Numbered from the stretch's first letter, positions 2,708 to 25,061 are shown. The stretch is 38,825 bases of DNA from Gomphosphaeria aponina SAG 52.96 = DSM 107014 (GCA_016903655.1 JADQBC010000020.1:1-38825); one strand, 5' to 3'. The notes: generated by a model not told the origin, from the letters alone. A program made the numbers and translations.

Positions 2708-3147
2708 ATGACTACTCAACTCAGTTCCCCAGTTCACTTAATTTCAGGACTTCCCCGCTCAGGAAGTACTCTGTTAGCTGGGATACTCAGACAAAACCCT
2801 AATTTTCATGCAGGTATGTCTTCCCCAGTAGGTGGACTAATGAACCAGTTGTTAGAGTCCGTAGGGGCGGGTTTAGGGACTAACCCTGGTACTTCTGAAC
2901 AAACTTCATATCAAAACCCGCCCCCGCTAATTCTGAGTTTTCTGTGTTTATTTCCGAACAGCAAAAACGGGACATTCTTTTAGGGGTTTTCCAAGCTTAC
3001 TATCACCAGCAATTAGCGGAAAATCAAGTTATTTTTGACACAAACCGTCTCTGGTGCAGCAAATTACCCTTAATTAACGAGCTATTCCCAAATGCAAAAG
3101 TAATCTTGTGTATCAGAAATATTGCTTGTGCTTTTAACGGTTTATGA
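2708..3147 (+). pseudogene. Broken sulfotransferase-like gene interrupted by a palindromic repeat element
   Basis: P-loop region VHLISGLPRSGSTLLAGILRQNPNFHAG, then the element at about 2862-2925, then a different frame encoding NSEFSVFISEQQKRDILLGVFQAYYHQ...VILCIRNIACAFNGL*. Confidence 0.75.
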
Positions 3148-4934: not shown

Positions 4935-4976
4935 GAGAAACTCCCCCCTTTTCTTTTTCGGTAGTGGTTGCACAAA

Positions 4977-5105
4977 ATTAATTACCGCAGGGTAGGGCGG
5001 GTTTTGATTTAAAGATCACGTTGCGATATTAATTACCGCAGGGTAGGGCGGGTTTTGATTTAAAGATCACGTTGATCACAAAGATCAAGGCTAAACCCGC
5101 CCCTA
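4977..5105. repeat. Palindromic repeat element, intergenic copy with a duplicated internal unit
   Basis: Perfect 47-nt direct repeat (attaattaccgcagggtagggcgggttttgatttaaagatcacgttg) at 4977-5023 and 5028-5074, closed by TAAACCCGCCCCTAC at about 5091-5105. Confidence 0.85.
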
Positions 5106-5148
5106 CATTCATTGTGTAAATAATTTTGCTTATCTACTTAGAGGCGTT

Positions 5149-5322
5149 GCTCTCCCTTCTCCCTACTCCCTACTCCCCACTCCCTTCTCCCCACTCCCTT
5201 CTCCCCACTCCCTACTCCCTTCTCCCCACTCCCTACTCCCTTCTCCCCACTCCCTTCTCCCCACTCCCTTCTCCCCACTCCCCACTCCCTTCTCCCCACT
5301 CCCCACTCCCCACTCCCCACTA
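5149..5322. repeat. Degenerate heptanucleotide tandem repeat (ACTCCCC/ACTCCCT/TCTCCCC)
   Basis: About 25 consecutive 7-mers; G-rich on the minus strand (GGGGAGTGGGGAGTGGGG...). Confidence 0.93.
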
Positions 5323-5398: not shown

Positions 5399-6184
5399 TC
5401 AGAAAGATTTTTTTTGTCGTTTAATCTCGAATAATAATAAAGCAGAAGCGATCGCCACATTTAAAGATTCTACCCCTGCACCCAGAGGAATTGTAACCTG
5501 TTCATCTGCTATGGAAATCAACTCATCAGAGAGTCCTGCCCCTTCATTTCCCAGTAAAATTAAAGAGGGCCTGGTAAAATCTATTTCCCAGTAAGTTTTT
5601 GTAGCAACAGGTCTAGTAGCGACCACCTGAACTTTCTGGTCTTGATAATTTGTAATTAATGCTTTTAAATCCTCACTTACTCCCATCGGGAGACGAAACC
5701 ACTCCCCAGCGGCTGCACGAATTACTTTAGGATTATATAAATCCACACTATCCCCACTCAACCATAAACCATCAACATTAGCAGCAGCAGCAGTACGGAT
5801 AATAGTTCCCAAATTACCAGGGTCTTGCAACCTTTCCAACAATAAAATTGAATTAATGTTAATTAAAGGAGGGGGAGGAGTATTTTTCCATAAAGCACTA
5901 GCTACTACCCCATCAGGGTTAACCGTAGTAGCGATCGCCTTCATTACCTCTTCACTTACTATTACTGCCCGCTCACTACATACCTGCAATTTTTCCCATA
6001 CCTCAGGGTAACGCAACTGCCATTTATTAGTACAAAAAACATTCACCAGCGGATAATGTACTCCCAAAGCTGACACTATTATATGTGTACCTTCCAACAA
6101 CAACAAACCCTGCTCGCGGCGATATTTAGCCAGGTGGAGCTTACGCATTTCTTTGAGCAGAGGATTTTGAAGACTGGTGATCAT
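5399..6184 (-). CDS. TrmH/SpoU-family RNA methyltransferase
   Basis: LLERLQDPGNLGTIIRTAAAANVDGLWLSGDSVDLYNPKVIRAAAGEWFRLP and LLGNEGAGLSDELISIADEQVTIPLGAGVESLNVAIASALLLFE. Start set to MITSLQNPLLKEMRKL because the ORF-track start runs into the tRNA. Confidence 0.93.
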   Translation of the reverse strand: MITSLQNPLLKEMRKLHLAKYRREQGLLLLEGTHIIVSALGVHYPLVNVFCTNKWQLRYPEVWEKLQVCSERAVIVSEEVMKAIATTVNPDGVVASALWKNTPPPPLININSILLLERLQDPGNLGTIIRTAAAANVDGLWLSGDSVDLYNPKVIRAAAGEWFRLPMGVSEDLKALITNYQDQKVQVVATRPVATKTYWEIDFTRPSLILLGNEGAGLSDELISIADEQVTIPLGAGVESLNVAIASALLLFEIKRQKKSF

Positions 6185-6200
6185 AAAAACAGAGATGAGA

Positions 6201-6282
6201 TGCGGAACCCGGGACTTGAACCCGGAAGTCCGAAAACACATGAACCTGAATCATGCGCGTCTACCAATTCCGCCAGTTCCGC
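6201..6282 (-). tRNA. tRNA-Leu (anticodon CAG)
   Basis: Reverse complement GCGGAACTGGCGGAATTGGTAGACGCGCATGATTCAGGTTCATGTGTTTTCGGACTTCCGGGTTCAAGTCCCGGGTTCCGCA: acceptor stem, D-arm, CATGA-TTCAGGT-TCATG anticodon arm and T-arm are all visible. Confidence 0.95.
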
Positions 6283-16203: not shown

Positions 16204-19200
16204 CTACTGCTTGAAATAAATGTAGCTTTCTGAAGGATGACCTCGGGGTTGAAAACTCCAGACGGACTGACGGGATTCAGTCATACTGCTACAGTAGGGA
16301 GCAAGATGCTTTTGGGTAAAGCGGAGCATGGGTTGATTATCCGCTGCTACTGCATATTTATAGTAAGGGATGTTGCTATTTATTTGCAGTTTCAGGGCTG
16401 CTGCTATTAAAGCAATACCTCGCCCCATTTTTTGGAAAGGCGGCTCTACATACATAGTAGAATAACGGATGGTTTGCTGGTCAACTCTGTGAGTAAGACA
16501 CCAACCTATCACTTTGCCATCGTAACGCAACCCCAAACTGTTGAGGGGTTCTAAACGAGAGTCTTGGGTTAGGGGTGAGAGAGATGGGGGATAGTTGAGT
16601 TGCTTTAACTCTTCTAACTCTGTGGGGGTTATTTCTACCCAGGGGAAAATAGTAAATTTCTCTGGGAGGGGATACTGATCCAACCAAGGAGCTTGGGCGA
16701 TTTTTTCTGTGGTAGTTTTAGCCAGCAAGAAGGTAGTTTTTGGTTTTTCCCAACCCAGTCGGCGCAATATTGGCTCTAGGGCAGTGGTAGTAATGTCTGT
16801 GACTTTATAAGCTATTTTGATTTCTGTTGCTAGGCTTTTTTGTAAATGCTGCAGTAAGTTGATGCCTATGCCTTGGTTACGGTATTCTGGTTTGACAAAG
16901 AAGGAAAGCACTTCGGTTATTTGTTTATTTTGGTTGTCATAAGTTTCTGCCAAAACCAAACCTATTGTTTCATTTTCTTTGAGGGCGAGAATACCCAGTA
17001 AGTTACCCCGTTGGGTTTTAGCCCGCCAGTGTTTGTGAATACTGGGGTAAGTGAGGGCATTAAATTGGAGGGTTTTGGCCCAGGTAAGGTTGTTGATTTG
17101 CTGGTAAGTTATTTGATTGGTTTTTTTTTGCTGTTGCTGCCACATTTGCTCATACCCAGTTTCTAAGTTAGCCACAAACTGGGGTAAGTCAAATAAGGGT
17201 AAGTTGGGGCGCAACTTAGGTAGGGTTTCGGGGTGGTTGCCAAAATTTATGGCTTTTTCTCGGTATTCTGCCCCAGTCTGACACACCATTTCTTCCAACC
17301 CCGCAGCATGACAAATACTTGCTCCCATGCTCGAAGCGTAGGTTTTTCCCTGTAAAGTTAGCACTGGTAAACCCATTGCTAAAGCTCCTACTGCGGTTGC
17401 TCCCGCATTATAGTTGAAAGTATCTAGCAATAAGTCGGCGAGTTGGTAGCGGGCTAAATATTCGGGGTGGGGGAGTTTGCTTGCAAAAATTAGGCGGGTT
17501 TTTATATTTGCGTCTGGGTTGGGGCGGGTTTTGATATTCAGGTTATGGTTTGTGTCATGGTTTGTTGCTAAACCCGCCCCTACAGTTTCCCGTTGCAAAT
17601 TTTCCTGGGTAATAAGAGAGTCATCTGCATATAACCACAAAACGGAATTGGGCACAGCTTGCAATATCTCCATCCACACTTGGAATACTTGAGGGGAGAT
17701 TTTAGCTGGGCGGTTAAAACTGCAAAAAACAAAAGCATTTTCTGGTAAGTTAAATTCCGCCCTGGTGATGGGTTTTTGGGAAACTTCCATTGAAGAGCCT
17801 ACAAAAGCGTGGGGCAGATAAATTACTTGCTCTGTATAATATTGAGTTAATTCTGGGGGAATTAGGGTTTTATCTGCCAAAATATACTGGATAAACTTTG
17901 CGCCCATTGTGCCAGGAAAACCTAAATAACTACACTGAATAGGAGCGGGTTGAAGGGCAAAAATTTCTGGGCGACAGTAGGTGGTATATCCTGCTAAGTC
18001 GATTAAAATATCTATCTCATCTTGGTTAATTTTTGCCGCTGCATCTACAGAAGACATTAAAGAGATATCGGTATATTGGTCACAATTTGCCTTAATGGTT
18101 GCTGTTAATTCATCTTCGGTGGTTAAATTATAACAGTAAACCTCAAATTTTTGGCGGTTATGGTGTTGGAAAATATCCTTAATTAAAACTCCCACTGCAT
18201 GGTTGCGAAAGTCGGGGGAAACATAACCCAGGCGGAGTTTATTTTTATTGCCCTTTTTTGCCATCGGGGTTGTTTTTCCTTGCATACCCGCCATTTTCTC
18301 TTCAACTCTGGCTGCATAATGGCTGGCAACTGCTTTATGTAAAGCTGGCTCAATATTAAAATAATTCAGAGTTAAAGGGAGAAGCTGATCTGAGTTATTT
18401 TCCCTGAGATGTTTTTCTGTGCGGGAAATTAACTCTCTTTCTAACTCATTATGGTTTTCCCAGTGACACATTTGCCGCAGTAAGTCACAGAAATGATAAA
18501 AAGTAGTTGTATTGTTGGGATTGATTTTTATAACCTGTTGGTAGAGTTTGGCTGCCCCCAGAAAATCTCCCTCTTCAGTTAGAATAATGCCTAAATTTCC
18601 CAAAGCAAAATCATTATCTGGTTGGGCTTGTAAAACTCGCTGATAACATTGTTTTGCTAGTTGACTCGCCCCCCGCATTTGCCAAGCTGCCCCTAAATTA
18701 AGACAAGCTGGGATATAATTAGGTTGGAGTTTCATGGCAGTTTGATAAGCTTTAATTGCCTCCTCAATTCTTTCTTGCCCTTTCAGTAAATTTCCCAACT
18801 CCAAATAAACTTCTGGATTGTTTGGTTGGAGTTGGAGCGCTTTTTGATAACATTGCCCTGCTTGGGGAAATTGTTTCTGACTTATAAATAGTCTGCCTAA
18901 GTTAAGATAGGGGAGGGGAAAGTTAGGTTTAAGTTGAATGGCAGTTTCATAAGCTTGAATTGCTCCTTGAATATCTCCCATTTGTTGGAAAACTGCCCCC
19001 AAGTTAGTATAAGCTGGAGCACTTTCTGGCTTAATTTGAATTATCTTTTCAAAACAAGTTTTGGCTTTTTGATATTGTTTCTCTGCGGTGTAGAGTTTCC
19101 CCAACTCGTTATAAGCGGGAATATTATCAGGTGCTGCGGCTATGATTTTTTCATATTCAGCAATAACCTGGTTGGGGTGGGTTTTGATATTAAGGTTATC

Positions 19201-20409
19201 CTCATTTGCGTCTGGGTTGGGGTGGGTTTTGATATTAAGATTATTATTTGTTTCAGAGACTGGGTTGGGGTGGGTTTTGATATTAAGGTTATTATTTGTT
19301 TCAGAGATTGTCTCTAAACCCGCCCCTACAGTAGCCTGTACATTGGCATCATCTTTTTTTACCACAGGTAGGGTTAAATTCCCAGGAAAATTAACCAGTC
19401 TTTGAATTTCATCGGTTTTAAAACCTAATGCCATTGGCTGTTTTACGCCTGGTAACACCACCACGTCGAATAATTCTGTTACCACGCCTTCAAATTCTAA
19501 CCAGTGGGCTACTTGCCCGTTATTCAAGTCGATTACCATCACGCCACATTTGGCCGTTGCGTCTTTTTTTGCCAAAGTTTCATCTAAAGCTAACCCATTA
19601 AAACTCCTATCCCTGGGTTTTGACATTCCTACAATGGCGAAGTTTTGCCAAAAAGCTAACCCTCTGACAAAACCTGGGCAAAAAGTCACTGGTTGAAACT
19701 TATCTGATTCTATATACCCCAATTCTCCACTGCCAGAGTTTAATACCCAAAGTTTTCCTTGGTAATATCTGGGGGAATGGGGCATAGATAACCCAGTGGT
19801 GATAATTTCCTTACTTTCTATCTCTATTACTACGCCGCCATTCTGCCTTCTTCCTCGCCAAGCTGCTGCCACATCTGAGCGACTACAAGCGGTTACATAC
19901 TTAGGTTTTCCTCCTACCTGCGCCAACCCATTGAGATGACATCTATCTTCTGGAGTCAGCCCAGAAATAAAGCTAGGTTGCCAAATTGGCTCAAAACTAA
20001 ACCCTGGTTTTAGTTTAGCTAAACAGGAGTATTTTGTGTTAACAAAGATTAAATCCCCATTATTGTCTAAAACTAAATCATGGGTGTTTAAATCTGCTGT
20101 TGTATAACCAATAGTTGGCACATAAAGCGCATCATAGGATTTTTGATGTAATTGCCCTGAAGTTAACATATTATCAAAGCGCCAAATTTGATAACGGGTA
20201 GCCAGGTAGAGGCTATTTTCTTGCTGATATAACCCCATTGCTCTGTCAAAAAAGCGCTCAAAACCAGAGAGAGTGCCATCTGGTTTTTTGCCTATGAAAA
20301 ATATGCGATTAGTTTGATAAGTAGAGAGGGCGATACTCAGATTATGCTCTTCTAGCCAGGAGAGCCAATATTCCGAGCAAATTAATTCTACTGGTGGTTG
20401 AGTCGTCAT
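16204..20409 (-). CDS. Multidomain protein: TIGR03032-like N-terminus, TPR repeats, GT41 (SPINDLY/OGT-type) glycosyltransferase, two GNAT-like acetyltransferase domains
   Basis: N-term LICSEYWLSWLEEHNLSIALSTYQTNRIFFIGK...FERFFDRAMGL; TPR units AYTNLGAVFQQMGDIQGAIQAYETAIQLKPN; GT41 LRLGYVSPDFRNHAVG...IDLAGYTTYCRPEIFALQPAPIQCSYLGFPGTMG...FNRPAKISPQVFQVWMEIL...YNAGATAVGALAMGLPVLTL; GNAT FFVKPEYRNQGIGINLLQHL and MYVEPPFQKMGRGIALIAAAL. Start shifted to MTTQPPVELI. Confidence 0.88.
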   Translation of the reverse strand: MTTQPPVELICSEYWLSWLEEHNLSIALSTYQTNRIFFIGKKPDGTLSGFERFFDRAMGLYQQENSLYLATRYQIWRFDNMLTSGQLHQKSYDALYVPTIGYTTADLNTHDLVLDNNGDLIFVNTKYSCLAKLKPGFSFEPIWQPSFISGLTPEDRCHLNGLAQVGGKPKYVTACSRSDVAAAWRGRRQNGGVVIEIESKEIITTGLSMPHSPRYYQGKLWVLNSGSGELGYIESDKFQPVTFCPGFVRGLAFWQNFAIVGMSKPRDRSFNGLALDETLAKKDATAKCGVMVIDLNNGQVAHWLEFEGVVTELFDVVVLPGVKQPMALGFKTDEIQRLVNFPGNLTLPVVKKDDANVQATVGAGLETISETNNNLNIKTHPNPVSETNNNLNIKTHPNPDANEDNLNIKTHPNQVIAEYEKIIAAAPDNIPAYNELGKLYTAEKQYQKAKTCFEKIIQIKPESAPAYTNLGAVFQQMGDIQGAIQAYETAIQLKPNFPLPYLNLGRLFISQKQFPQAGQCYQKALQLQPNNPEVYLELGNLLKGQERIEEAIKAYQTAMKLQPNYIPACLNLGAAWQMRGASQLAKQCYQRVLQAQPDNDFALGNLGIILTEEGDFLGAAKLYQQVIKINPNNTTTFYHFCDLLRQMCHWENHNELERELISRTEKHLRENNSDQLLPLTLNYFNIEPALHKAVASHYAARVEEKMAGMQGKTTPMAKKGNKNKLRLGYVSPDFRNHAVGVLIKDIFQHHNRQKFEVYCYNLTTEDELTATIKANCDQYTDISLMSSVDAAAKINQDEIDILIDLAGYTTYCRPEIFALQPAPIQCSYLGFPGTMGAKFIQYILADKTLIPPELTQYYTEQVIYLPHAFVGSSMEVSQKPITRAEFNLPENAFVFCSFNRPAKISPQVFQVWMEILQAVPNSVLWLYADDSLITQENLQRETVGAGLATNHDTNHNLNIKTRPNPDANIKTRLIFASKLPHPEYLARYQLADLLLDTFNYNAGATAVGALAMGLPVLTLQGKTYASSMGASICHAAGLEEMVCQTGAEYREKAINFGNHPETLPKLRPNLPLFDLPQFVANLETGYEQMWQQQQKKTNQITYQQINNLTWAKTLQFNALTYPSIHKHWRAKTQRGNLLGILALKENETIGLVLAETYDNQNKQITEVLSFFVKPEYRNQGIGINLLQHLQKSLATEIKIAYKVTDITTTALEPILRRLGWEKPKTTFLLAKTTTEKIAQAPWLDQYPLPEKFTIFPWVEITPTELEELKQLNYPPSLSPLTQDSRLEPLNSLGLRYDGKVIGWCLTHRVDQQTIRYSTMYVEPPFQKMGRGIALIAAALKLQINSNIPYYKYAVAADNQPMLRFTQKHLAPYCSSMTESRQSVWSFQPRGHPSESYIYFKQ
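17492..17583 (-). repeat. Palindromic repeat element inside the GT41 domain, in frame
   Basis: Minus strand GTAGGGGCGGGTTTAGCAACAAACCATGACACAAACCATAACCTGAATATCAAAACCCGCCCCAACCCAGACGCAAATATAAAAACCCGCCT; encodes VGAGLATNHDTNHNLNIKTRPNPDANIKT. Confidence 0.85.
19172..19329 (-). repeat. Palindromic repeat element in the interdomain linker, in frame, with three internal units
   Basis: Encodes VGAGLETISETNNNLNIKTHPNPVSETNNNLNIKTHPNPDANEDNLNIKTHPN. Confidence 0.87.
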
Positions 20410-20491
20410 TTTTTTATTATTTTTTATCAAAAAAAAGGCAGACTGTTAACAAGTAACTTACTTATGCTCTTTTCCTGGTAATTTCTCCAGC

Positions 20492-20980: not shown

Positions 20981-23900
20981 TCAAATGGGTGTAGTCCACA
21001 ACTCTATTCCATTTGTACCATTATTGGCTGTGAAATAAAGCTCTCCCAACATATCAGTTAGGTTGGCGGGTTGAGAACCCCTGCCTCCTACAAGGATATC
21101 TTGAACTAACACAGTTCCTCCTGAAGTTCCATCACTTGTCCATAACTCTTTCCCATTAATACTATTATTAGCTGTGAAATAGAGAGTTCCATTGACATTT
21201 GTTAAGTTATAAGGATTGGAACTACCGCCATTTAAAAGAATGTCTTTGACTAACACAGTTCCTGCTGCTGTTCCATCACTTTTCCACAACTCAACTCCGT
21301 TAATTCCATCATTAGCTGTGAAATAGAGAGTTCCATTGACATTTGTTAAGTTTGATGGGTCAGAACTACCGCCATTTAAAAGAATATCTTTGACTAACAC
21401 AGTTCCTGCTGCTGTTCCATTACTTTTCCACAACTCAACTCCGTTAGTCCCGTTATCAGCTGTGAAATAGAGAGTTCCATTGACATTTGTTAGATTAGAT
21501 GGGTCAGAACTACCGTCATTTAAAAGAATATCTTTGACTAAGACAGTTCCTGTTGCGGTGCCATTACTTTTCCACAACTCAACTCCTTTAGTCCCGTTAT
21601 CAGCTGTAAAAAAGAGAATATTGTTGACATTTGTTAGGTTTGATGGGTCAGAACTACCGTCATTTAAAACAATATCTTTAAGCAATACAGTTCCTGTTGC
21701 TGCTCCATTACTTTTCCATAACTCAACTCCGTTAGTCCCGTTATCAGCTGTAAAAAAGAGAATATTGTTGACATTTGTTAGGTTTGAGGGATTGGAACTA
21801 CCGCCATTTACAAAAATATCTTTGAGTAAAACAGTTCCTTCTGCTGTTCCATTACTCGAAAACAACTCTATCCCATTAGTACCATTATTAGCTGTAAAAA
21901 AGAGAGTTCCGTTGACATTTGTTAGGTTAGATGGAGTGGAACTACCGCTTCCTGAACGAATATCTTTGAGTAAAACAAATTCCCCAATATCATTGACATT
22001 AATGGTAAATACTTGTTGAAATGTTCCTCCGTTTCCATCGTTGGTTTGTACCCGAATGGAGTAGGAAGACTTGGTTTCAAAGTCGAAGACATTTTTTGTT
22101 TTTAGTTGGTTTCCGACTATCTCAAAAGCAGTATTATCTGTACTTCCTGTCCCTGCAACTAACTGGTAACTGTGAGTCTGTCCTGCATCTGGGTCAGTTG
22201 TCGTTATGTTTCCTACCACTGTGCCTGAAGGTTGGTTTTCACCTACTTTGTTGGAGTCCAGGTTAATAGCTGTGGGAGGTTGGTTTTCAGAAACATCATT
22301 TACTGTTATTGCTGCTGTTGTGGTTTCTACACTAAATGCTGTCTCTCCTCCATTGCTGGTTGTATTTGCTATTCCTCCTACTACTCCTTTGGTTTTGTCC
22401 CAGAGTCGGAAGGTAATATTAGCTGTACCAAACCAGTCTGGGTTGGGGATAAACCGCATTTTGTTGGTACTGTTTAGGAGTCGGGCGGTAGCTTCTGTTA
22501 CACTACCAAAATTGTTCCAGGTGTTTCCCCCATTTGTGGAGTATTGCCAAGCTCCGTTTGTGTTGTCGGCTGCGGTGACTGCTATTGCTTCTACTGCACC
22601 TTCTGGGTCAATTACTGTGTTGTCGGTGATTATTTCTGCTACAGTATTGCCTGTTGGTGCGGTTTCATCTTCGTTAACAGCAGTCAGGTTATAGATGGGG
22701 GGTTCGCTGGTGTTTTTATAGTAATAAAAACTACCTAAAAATTCCCCACTGAAAACATCTAAATCCCCATCTGCGTCTATGTCTGCCAAAGTAGGAGTGC
22801 TGGCCAAACTTACATCTTGCCCATTTAAGGGGTTAGCTATACCTGCTTGATAGGTAAATTTGGGATTGGTCTGATTCCCTGTATTTTTGAAGTAATAAAA
22901 AATGCCAGAACCTTCCCCACTGAAAGCATCTAAATCCCCATCTCCGTCTAGATCTGCCAAAGTGGGGGCGCTGTTAGAACCTACATCCCAATTTAAGGGG
23001 TTAGCTGTGCCCATTACTTCGGTAAATTGGGGATTGGTCTTATTTCCTGTGTTTTTGAAATACTTAATAGTCCCCGAATATTCCCCACTGAAAACATCTA
23101 AATCCCCATCCGCGTCTATGTCTGCCAAAGTAGGAGTGCTGTAAGAACCCACATCTTGCCCATTTAAGGGGTTAGCTGTGCCTATTACTTCGGTAAATTG
23201 GGGATTGGTCTCATTTCCTGTATTCTTGAAGTAATTAAAAATGCCATTATCTTCCCCACTGAAAGCGTCTAAATCCCCATCCGCGTCTATATCTGCAAAA
23301 GTAGGAGTGCTGCTACCAAAAAAATAATCACCCACATCAAACCCATTTAAGGGGTTAGCTGTGCCTATTACTTCGGTAAATTGGGGATTGGTCTTATTTC
23401 CTGTGTTTTTGAAGTAATTAAAAAAGCCATTATCTTCCCCACTGAAAGCGTCTAAATCCCCATCCGCGTCTATATCTGCAAAAGTAGGAGTGCTGTCACC
23501 AAACACACTATCAGCCACATCAAACCCATTTAAGGGGTTAGGACTGCCATATAGGTGGGTAAATTGGGGGATTTTGCTGAACTTGGGAGCTGTGTTATCA
23601 ATAACGCTTCTAACATAAACAGTTGCTATTGTGGTTTCTACACTAAATGCTGTCTCTCCTCCATTGCTGGTGGTATTTGCTGTTCCTCCTGCAACTCCTG
23701 TGGTTTTATCCCAGAGTCGGAGGGTAATGTTGGCTGTACCATACCAGTTTGCTTTGGGGATAAACCGCACTTTATTGGTACTGTCTAGGAGTCGGGCGGC
23801 AGCTTGAGTTACAGAACCGAAATTGTTCCAGGTACTTCCCCCATCGGTGGAATATTGCCAAGTTCCGTTTTTGTTATCTACTGCGGCGATCGCTACTGCT

Positions 23901-24889
23901 TCTACTGCTCCCTCTGGGTCACCTACTGTGTTGTCGCTGATTATTTCTGCGATGGTGTTGCCAGTTGGGGCGGTTTCATCTTCGTTAATAAGAGTCAGGT
24001 TATAGATGGGGGGTTGGCTAATGTCTTTAAAGTAGTAAATAGTCCCATTCAATTCCCCACTGAAAGCATCTAAATCCCCATCCGCGTCTATGTCTGCCAA
24101 AGTAGGAGTGCTGTACAAACTTACATAAAGCTCATTTAAGGGGTTAGCTGTGCCTGTTTGATAGGTAAATTGGGGATTGTTCTTATTTCCCGTGTTCTTG
24201 AAGTAGTAAAAATAACCATAATATTCCCCAATGAAAGCATCTAAATCCCCATCCGCGTCTATTTCTGCCAAAGTAGGAGTGCTGTTATCACCCACCTCCC
24301 AATTTAAGGGGTTAGCTGTGCCTATTACTTGGGTAAATTTGGGATTGGTCTGATTTCCTGTGTTCTTGAAGTAATTAATAATACCATCTTCTGCCCCACT
24401 GAAAGCATCTAAATCCCCATCTCCGTCTATGTCTCCCAAAGTAGGAGTGCTGTAATAACCCACATCTTTCCCATTGAACGGGTTAGCTGTGCCTGTAACT
24501 TCGGTAAATTGAGGATTGGTCTTATTTCCTGTGTTTTTGAAGTAATTAAAAATGCCATCATATTCCCCAATGAGAGCATCTAAATCCCCATCTCCGTCTA
24601 TGTCTGCCAAAGTAGGAGTGCTGTAATAACCCACATTTTTTCCATTAAAGGGGTTAGCTGTGCCTATTACTTCGGTAAATTTGGGATTGTTCTTATTTCC
24701 CGTGTTCTTAAAGTAGTTTAAAGTCCCATCCCATTCCCCACTGAAAGCGTCTAAATCCCCATCCGCGTCTATGTCTGCCAAAGTAGGAGTGCTGTAAGAA
24801 CCCACATCTTTTCCATTAAAGGGGTTAGCTGTGTCAGTCTGTTCGGTAAATTGGGGGATTTTGCTGAACCTGGGGGCTGTGTTTGCCAT
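20981..24889 (-). CDS. Large FG-GAP/VCBS repeat protein with cadherin-like domain and C-terminal ELWxSNGTxxGT repeats
   Basis: Repeated STPTLADIDADGDLDAFSGExxGxxxYFKNTGN; VGENQPSGTVVGNITTTDPDAGQTHSYQLVAG cadherin-like; repeated GTLYFTANNGTNGVELWKSNGTAAGTVLVKDI. Start at MANTAPRF behind AAGGAGAATT. Confidence 0.9.
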   Translation of the reverse strand: MANTAPRFSKIPQFTEQTDTANPFNGKDVGSYSTPTLADIDADGDLDAFSGEWDGTLNYFKNTGNKNNPKFTEVIGTANPFNGKNVGYYSTPTLADIDGDGDLDALIGEYDGIFNYFKNTGNKTNPQFTEVTGTANPFNGKDVGYYSTPTLGDIDGDGDLDAFSGAEDGIINYFKNTGNQTNPKFTQVIGTANPLNWEVGDNSTPTLAEIDADGDLDAFIGEYYGYFYYFKNTGNKNNPQFTYQTGTANPLNELYVSLYSTPTLADIDADGDLDAFSGELNGTIYYFKDISQPPIYNLTLINEDETAPTGNTIAEIISDNTVGDPEGAVEAVAIAAVDNKNGTWQYSTDGGSTWNNFGSVTQAAARLLDSTNKVRFIPKANWYGTANITLRLWDKTTGVAGGTANTTSNGGETAFSVETTIATVYVRSVIDNTAPKFSKIPQFTHLYGSPNPLNGFDVADSVFGDSTPTFADIDADGDLDAFSGEDNGFFNYFKNTGNKTNPQFTEVIGTANPLNGFDVGDYFFGSSTPTFADIDADGDLDAFSGEDNGIFNYFKNTGNETNPQFTEVIGTANPLNGQDVGSYSTPTLADIDADGDLDVFSGEYSGTIKYFKNTGNKTNPQFTEVMGTANPLNWDVGSNSAPTLADLDGDGDLDAFSGEGSGIFYYFKNTGNQTNPKFTYQAGIANPLNGQDVSLASTPTLADIDADGDLDVFSGEFLGSFYYYKNTSEPPIYNLTAVNEDETAPTGNTVAEIITDNTVIDPEGAVEAIAVTAADNTNGAWQYSTNGGNTWNNFGSVTEATARLLNSTNKMRFIPNPDWFGTANITFRLWDKTKGVVGGIANTTSNGGETAFSVETTTAAITVNDVSENQPPTAINLDSNKVGENQPSGTVVGNITTTDPDAGQTHSYQLVAGTGSTDNTAFEIVGNQLKTKNVFDFETKSSYSIRVQTNDGNGGTFQQVFTINVNDIGEFVLLKDIRSGSGSSTPSNLTNVNGTLFFTANNGTNGIELFSSNGTAEGTVLLKDIFVNGGSSNPSNLTNVNNILFFTADNGTNGVELWKSNGAATGTVLLKDIVLNDGSSDPSNLTNVNNILFFTADNGTKGVELWKSNGTATGTVLVKDILLNDGSSDPSNLTNVNGTLYFTADNGTNGVELWKSNGTAAGTVLVKDILLNGGSSDPSNLTNVNGTLYFTANDGINGVELWKSDGTAAGTVLVKDILLNGGSSNPYNLTNVNGTLYFTANNSINGKELWTSDGTSGGTVLVQDILVGGRGSQPANLTDMLGELYFTANNGTNGIELWTTPI

Positions 24890-25061
24890 AATTCTCCTTG
24901 AGATTAGTTGGTTTTCGCAGACTTCGTAATCATCTTTTTTGCAAATGTATTTCTCTGGTCGGGGTTTTTTTTGCTCTTGAATCACTATAAACCATCTTTG
25001 GAGAATCTGTCAAGGGGGTTGGGGGAAAAATGGGAAAAATTAATATTTGTTTACAATTCTT

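Follow-up and report, generated by a model that had tools for sequence, protein, structure and literature searches.

Several families of short palindromic repeats in bacteria resemble the element described here. GTAG-tagged repetitive extragenic palindromes (REPs) are 20–40 bp long, with a stem of 6–13 bp and loops mostly of 2–15 nt, up to 27 nt; families GTAG-12, GTAG-15 and GTAG-16 occur in cyanobacteria, and intragenic copies, including double inserts in one gene, are described from other bacteria (Di Nocera et al. 2013, PMC3733652). REP-associated tyrosine transposases (RAYTs) bind GTAG hairpins and cleave between C and T (PMC8266576). Rickettsia palindromic elements (RPEs) are about 150 bp long, and nearly half of them lie in open reading frames (ORFs) (PMC10969869). 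Here we describe a GTAG-bearing repeat from a 38,825-nt stretch of Gomphosphaeria aponina SAG 52.96 = DSM 107014 (GCA_016903655.1 JADQBC010000020.1:1-38825; hereafter the window), two copies of which are predicted to be translated in frame within a single gene for a protein with a glycosyltransferase family 41 (GT41) domain. The element itself is not protein-coding and, in a census of 159 copies, is mostly intergenic. We consider it likely that it is a non-autonomous mobile repeat which has been tolerated in frame and copied within the GT41 gene, giving two related, disordered inserts. Its sequence GTAGGGGCGGGTTT was not found in print in the literature searched.

The host gene is one ORF of 1,408 aa that carries the element twice in the same frame, as an earlier note on this DNA had proposed. 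Both cores, 62–63 bp long, are read as VGAGL...NLNIKT.P. The features concerned are as follows.

16204..20430, minus strand: 1,408-aa ORF with TIGR03032/DUF4915, a tetratricopeptide repeat (TPR) array, a GT41 catalytic domain similar to O-GlcNAc transferase (OGT) and GNAT domains.
19268..19329, minus strand: core of element copy 1, in the DUF4915–TPR linker, encoding VGAGLETISETNNNLNIKTHP from residue 368 (E=1e-13 with a covariance model built in part from this copy).
19167..19267, minus strand: tandem extra right-half units of copy 1, at 45 + 48 nt spacing, to about residue 422.
19204..19219, minus strand: 16-nt tail CAACCCAGACGCAAAT within the copy-1 array (exact match).
17522..17583, minus strand: core of element copy 2, within the GT41 domain, encoding VGAGLATNHDTNHNLNIKTRP from residue 950 (E=4.5e-14 with the same model, likewise built in part from this copy; homologue alignment).
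17506..17521, minus strand: 16-nt tail CAACCCAGACGCAAAT after copy 2 (exact match).
17493..17508, minus strand: truncated second right arm (AATATAAAAACCCGCC), abutting the native RLIF codons.

Profile matches agree with the earlier domain reading (TIGR03032-like region, TPRs, GT41) and include DUF4915 and GNAT: TIGR03032 scores 451 bits and DUF4915 452 bits, and the GT41 region, its match divided into two stretches, scores 260 bits with Pfam and E=8e-71 in a phmmer search against OGT structures. The linker insert encodes VGAGLETISETNNNLNIKTHPNP-VSETNNNLNIKTHPNP-DANEDNLNIKTHPNQ and the GT41 insert VGAGLATNHDTNHNLNIKTRPNP-DANIKT. The internal units recur at intervals of 45 and 48 nt in the linker copy and of 30 nt (a truncated unit) in the GT41 copy, all multiples of three, as had been remarked. 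NPDANIKT, which follows copy 2, was considered as native sequence and rejected: its DNA matches the right arm of the element at 15/16 positions, and the copy-2 tail recurs in the linker array.

Alignment and folding of 50 diverse copies define the element as GTAG plus a 10-bp stem (GGGCGGGTTT/AAACCCGCCC) around a variable loop of ~39 nt, with a total size of 60–65 bp (about 63 bp). These copies were chosen by their exact left end, and the covariance model is thus seeded with it. No covariation was seen in the stem among the 50 selected copies, owing to this choice and to arms that are nearly constant. With the model, no fewer than 150 copies are detected in the genome. As an independent measure, an exact pattern matches 89 times, against 0 for its reversed control, and the exact 16-nt left end GTAGGGGCGGGTTTAG is found at 96 places. 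A total of 52 of the 159 copies are nested mid-way in a larger repeat that starts with TAAGTAG and ends near CCACTTA; the flanks of the other 107 are mostly unrelated. With regard to the C|T dinucleotide at which RAYTs cleave, T stands immediately 5' of GTAG in 85 of these 107 (p=3e-22), but C at −2 in only 25. The left ends and the preceding T bear out the proposal of a genome-wide element with shared ends in a cyanobacterium; copies without shared boundaries, the outcome named as speaking against it, are not what the genome holds, where boundaries are common to the copies.

The census covers the window's own genome (G000), a 76% complete draft of 146 contigs, in which the 159 copies were located in stretches around matches and spanning ORFs were sought in six frames. 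Tabulated as intergenic or in frame, as the earlier note had suggested, most copies are intergenic, one lies in the broken sulfotransferase gene described below, and five lie inside genes with recognisable domains and in frame: two in the GT41 gene, two in a TPR-GT2 gene and one in a gene for an NQR2/RnfD-like membrane protein (contig C109), where it occupies a loop of variable length among homologues. The TPR-GT2 protein (1,918 aa; L224:709-6465, minus strand, contig C145) has its two copies at domain boundaries, in the VGAG frame, and these are not each other's nearest relatives. Two of the 159 copies form C termini (C5:6899 and C70:1256); we take the 509-aa ORF that ends in the first to be a DegT-type aminotransferase, from its sequence alone. 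On C63 and C75 the copy stands ahead of the apparent start, probably in upstream sequence, and the few short ORFs that span other copies are without homology support. Selection-free insertion would, by rough expectation, put 111–135 copies in genes, 11–13 of them frame-preserving; by this yardstick the census, which undercounts gene-disrupting copies where a broken frame conceals them, shows coding copies to be depleted. The in-frame copies look like survivors rather than targets.

These counts bear on a different account, in which a protein-coding palindromic element inserted twice independently and, as for RPEs, in-frame insertion is regular and supplies new peptides. Three of the six frames of the element commonly lack stops (in 84, 76 and 94 of 159 copies), the VGAGL frame among them, and the C145 gene provides a second pair of in-frame copies, not closest relatives. 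Set against this are the small share of internal in-frame copies (5/159), the codon differences between the two GT41-gene heads, six of eight of which change the residue, with no peptide selection visible, and a tail that the GT41 pair shares and that is found nowhere else in the genome. We regard this account as improbable. Right-half tandem repeats follow 6 of the 159 copies. The window has three of the six, of which one is intergenic; amplification is therefore not tied to coding, and the amplified internal units emphasized earlier are real but rare.

The shared tail is central to the relation between the two copies. CAACCCAGACGCAAAT occurs exactly twice genome-wide, both times in the GT41 gene, and was not found after any other of the 159 copies. 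In both GT41-gene copies the right arm is followed by CAACCCAGACGCAAAT and then by a further element right arm. Because this tail is unique to the gene, the two copies are not independent, and the claim that the element was inserted twice, if read as two separate events, is not supported. Probably one of the two arrays arose as an in-gene copy of the other, in either direction; on a copying account, the copy-2 tail is the copy-1 tail minus 15 nt (five codons). The array may further have moved within the gene together with flanking DNA, replacing native codons, an idea that we hold as doubtful. If it is true, small REP-like repeats could be more than inserted extras: they could act as donors in the exchange of protein segments inside their host gene.

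In a draft of 146 contigs, collapse or misjoining of short repeats can occur, and the repeats might have been misplaced into the gene during assembly. Neither insert nor any of the internal units, however, breaks the frame; the tail, which has no match elsewhere, did not come from another locus; a typical read is longer than an element; and other contigs have similar in-gene copies. An assembly artefact is, in our view, very unlikely.

At the GT41 site, the segment is of constant length in 24 homologues (for example, NLRQAAQNRGIDGN-RIIF), whereas here NLQRE is followed by 30 residues and RLIF, a net difference of +21 residues. The VGAGL/NIKT segment is absent from the site in all 24 aligned homologues, which disposes of the concern that homologues might share it as conserved sequence. 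The native segment is missing, and the insert therefore stands in its place: the homologues are short at this position, as had been stated, but the loop has not merely been lengthened, since a native segment of constant length is replaced. The same alignment counts against the proposal that the segments are an ordinary low-complexity linker of the family whose DNA likeness to intergenic repeats is coincidental. Although the first insert does lie in a linker and the NQR2/RnfD-like insert in a length-variable loop, the DNA identity extends genome-wide and includes the ends, the reversed pattern gives no match, and the GT41 site is neither variable in length nor occupied by this segment in any homologue aligned. 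The data refute this proposal, and we give it next to no credence.

An AlphaFold2 model of residues 700–1105, made with a 25-sequence alignment, has a mean pLDDT of 86.5, with all residues below 50 at 958–975, within the insert. The top Foldseek matches in the PDB are O-GlcNAc transferases (TMq 0.82–0.83), so that Pfam, phmmer and Foldseek agree on an OGT catalytic fold. Of 37 near-invariant residues 34 are kept, and the three deviations compare with a range of 0–12 among homologues. The OGT fold is predicted to be intact, and to tolerate the insert, and the insert to be disordered; a fold that is predicted is no proof of a working enzyme, which may likewise tolerate the insert.

Besides the GT41 pair, the window carries two more copies.

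2861..2923, plus strand: element copy in a broken sulfotransferase gene (intact paralogue without the element elsewhere in the genome).
5046..5106, minus strand: intergenic element copy nested in a larger repeat of the TAAGTAG...CCACTTA type, with its right half tandemly duplicated (51 nt).

The first lies in a sulfotransferase pseudogene (window 2717-3138, plus strand) that is frameshifted and truncated. The intact paralogue (C80:28146-28493, L270; 80% DNA identity) lacks the element and reads GAGTCC/ATGAGTA/CTAATTC where the window reads GAGTCC/GTAG...CCCGCCCCCG/CTAATTC; 66 nt are present and 7 nt of paralogue sequence are absent. No target-site duplication was found at this, the one resolved site. 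Aligned intact sulfotransferases have no element insert, and an MS-type dipeptide occupies the site instead. The larger repeat that encloses the second copy spans about 4960-5140 (minus strand; approximate bounds), and a 7/14-nt repeat array of the CTCCCTACTCCCCA type adjoins this copy at 5152-5321. Elsewhere in the genome, the left end GTAGGGGCGGGTTTAGCCATT is tandemly repeated every 21 nt beside an element copy (L052, C80 25569-25694).

The broken sulfotransferase gene invites the view that the GT41 gene is decaying in the same manner and that its inserts mark a pseudogene. Loss of the native segment within the catalytic domain and the change at residue 1034 (R to S) would fit such decay. 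All 1,408 codons are open, however, the internal spacings are all multiples of three, and near-invariant residues are retained in a fold predicted with high confidence; we think decay unlikely.

Instead, we propose that the element belongs to the short, non-autonomous mobile repeats and that it would have spread within this genome and in related cyanobacteria, probably by means of a transposase that acts on its hairpin. It would land widely, with purifying selection clearing nearly all of the copies that hit genes; those in genes would persist where the insertion preserves the frame, where the element has no stops in that frame and where the target is a linker or surface turn. One copy would have entered the TIGR03032-GT41 gene and acquired tandem right-half units in multiples of three, after which the array would have been copied about 1.7 kb along the gene, in one direction or the other, yielding two related inserts. 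The GT41 insert would take the place of some nine native codons in the stretch that separates a helix from the strand RLIF, so that an OGT-type fold conserved elsewhere would bear a disordered loop at its surface. In-frame insertion of this element has the look of a rare accident that is tolerated, and the general type is known.

Several points weigh against this proposal. We infer mobility from copy number and from one paralogue comparison at 80% identity. A near-identical empty site for the GT41 insert is lacking, the genomes compared including no family member, and loss of the native GT41 codons could have preceded the insertion or followed it. R at 1034, conserved in homologues, is replaced by S. 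No element copies flank either of the two RAYT-like Y1 transposase genes of this genome, one intact (C113:1046-1834; 63 bits with NF047646, the NCBI RAYT model, below its cutoff of 80) and one broken (C102:16130-16795), and in relatives the occurrence of RAYTs does not follow that of the element.

These last two observations count against a RAYT as the mobiliser. Related elements are present in 24 of 60 same-order genomes and 24 of 246 phylum-wide, each count taking in the window's own genome. Several relatives have a form of the element that terminates in CTAC and is hence symmetrical, with inverted arms of up to 14 bp. No element copies flank the full-length RAYTs of relatives. Genome G034 has a truncated, 81% identical RAYT-like gene (L283:1332-2007) with two element copies close by on its upstream side and a third close by on its downstream side, and G057 has a RAYT fragment (L291:1744-1801) with one copy 30 nt downstream. 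No more than about 40 nt separates these fragments from their copies, an arrangement like that of a REPtron, which might point to the mobiliser. Both are remnants, in genomes that bear the element, and the link that they suggest is a lead rather than a demonstration. An autonomous transposon between inverted copies was also considered; the C80 pair, the one pair closely examined, encloses a host gene and no transposase.

Elsewhere in the window, a Ycf48 gene is a marker of a cyanobacterium. A 1,334-aa FG-GAP/cadherin repeat protein is encoded at 20981-24985 (minus strand) by a gene with 144-nt and 171-nt tandem repeats, and a predicted tRNA at 6201-6282 (minus strand) overlaps the 5' part of a SpoU methylase ORF at 5399-6241.

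The locus is a clear cyanobacterial addition to the few cases in which small mobile repeats have turned into translated protein, and one of its inserts lies within a catalytic domain whose architecture is constant. The pair with the private tail and the sulfotransferase with an intact paralogue are rare footholds on the mode of insertion of the element: at the one resolved site, local sequence was lost and no target was duplicated. The distribution of the long-loop GTAG element is also wide enough for its mobiliser to be sought.

Among known systems, RPEs are similar in that a palindromic repeat is translated in frame inside unrelated host proteins. That much of the likeness first drawn holds, in a cyanobacterium; it is weak, as only about 3% of the copies are internal and in frame, compared with nearly half, and peptide selection is not visible. 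Like miniature inverted-repeat transposable elements (Nezha of cyanobacteria; QMITEs of Coxiella, PMC5896051), the element is short, within their size of tens to hundreds of bp, with inverted ends (10-bp arms), no transposase or other coding capacity of its own and occasional in-frame fusions; unlike them, it shows no target-site duplication at the one resolved site. No autonomous element with the same ends was found, the C80 pair being the one inverted pair examined closely. As in REPINs, hairpin-forming REP doublets (PMC3116915), two conserved inverted arms surround a variable spacer and form a hairpin, and in cyanobacterial relatives the element can start with GTAG and finish with CTAC. In contrast to REPINs, its arms pair with each other and are not self-palindromic; in this genome its right end is mostly without CTAC, and the element has no linked RAYT. 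GTAG-tagged REPs share with it an unpaired GTAG at the 5' foot of the stem, a GC-rich stem whose 10 bp lie within their range, and a high copy number, mainly intergenic with some copies inside ORFs. The element differs from them in having no RAYT flanked by it in its own genome, in its length (60–65 bp compared with 20–40 bp) and in its loop of ~39 nt. Because its size and loop fall outside those of REPs, we class it as a variant of the GTAG-tagged REPs rather than a member.

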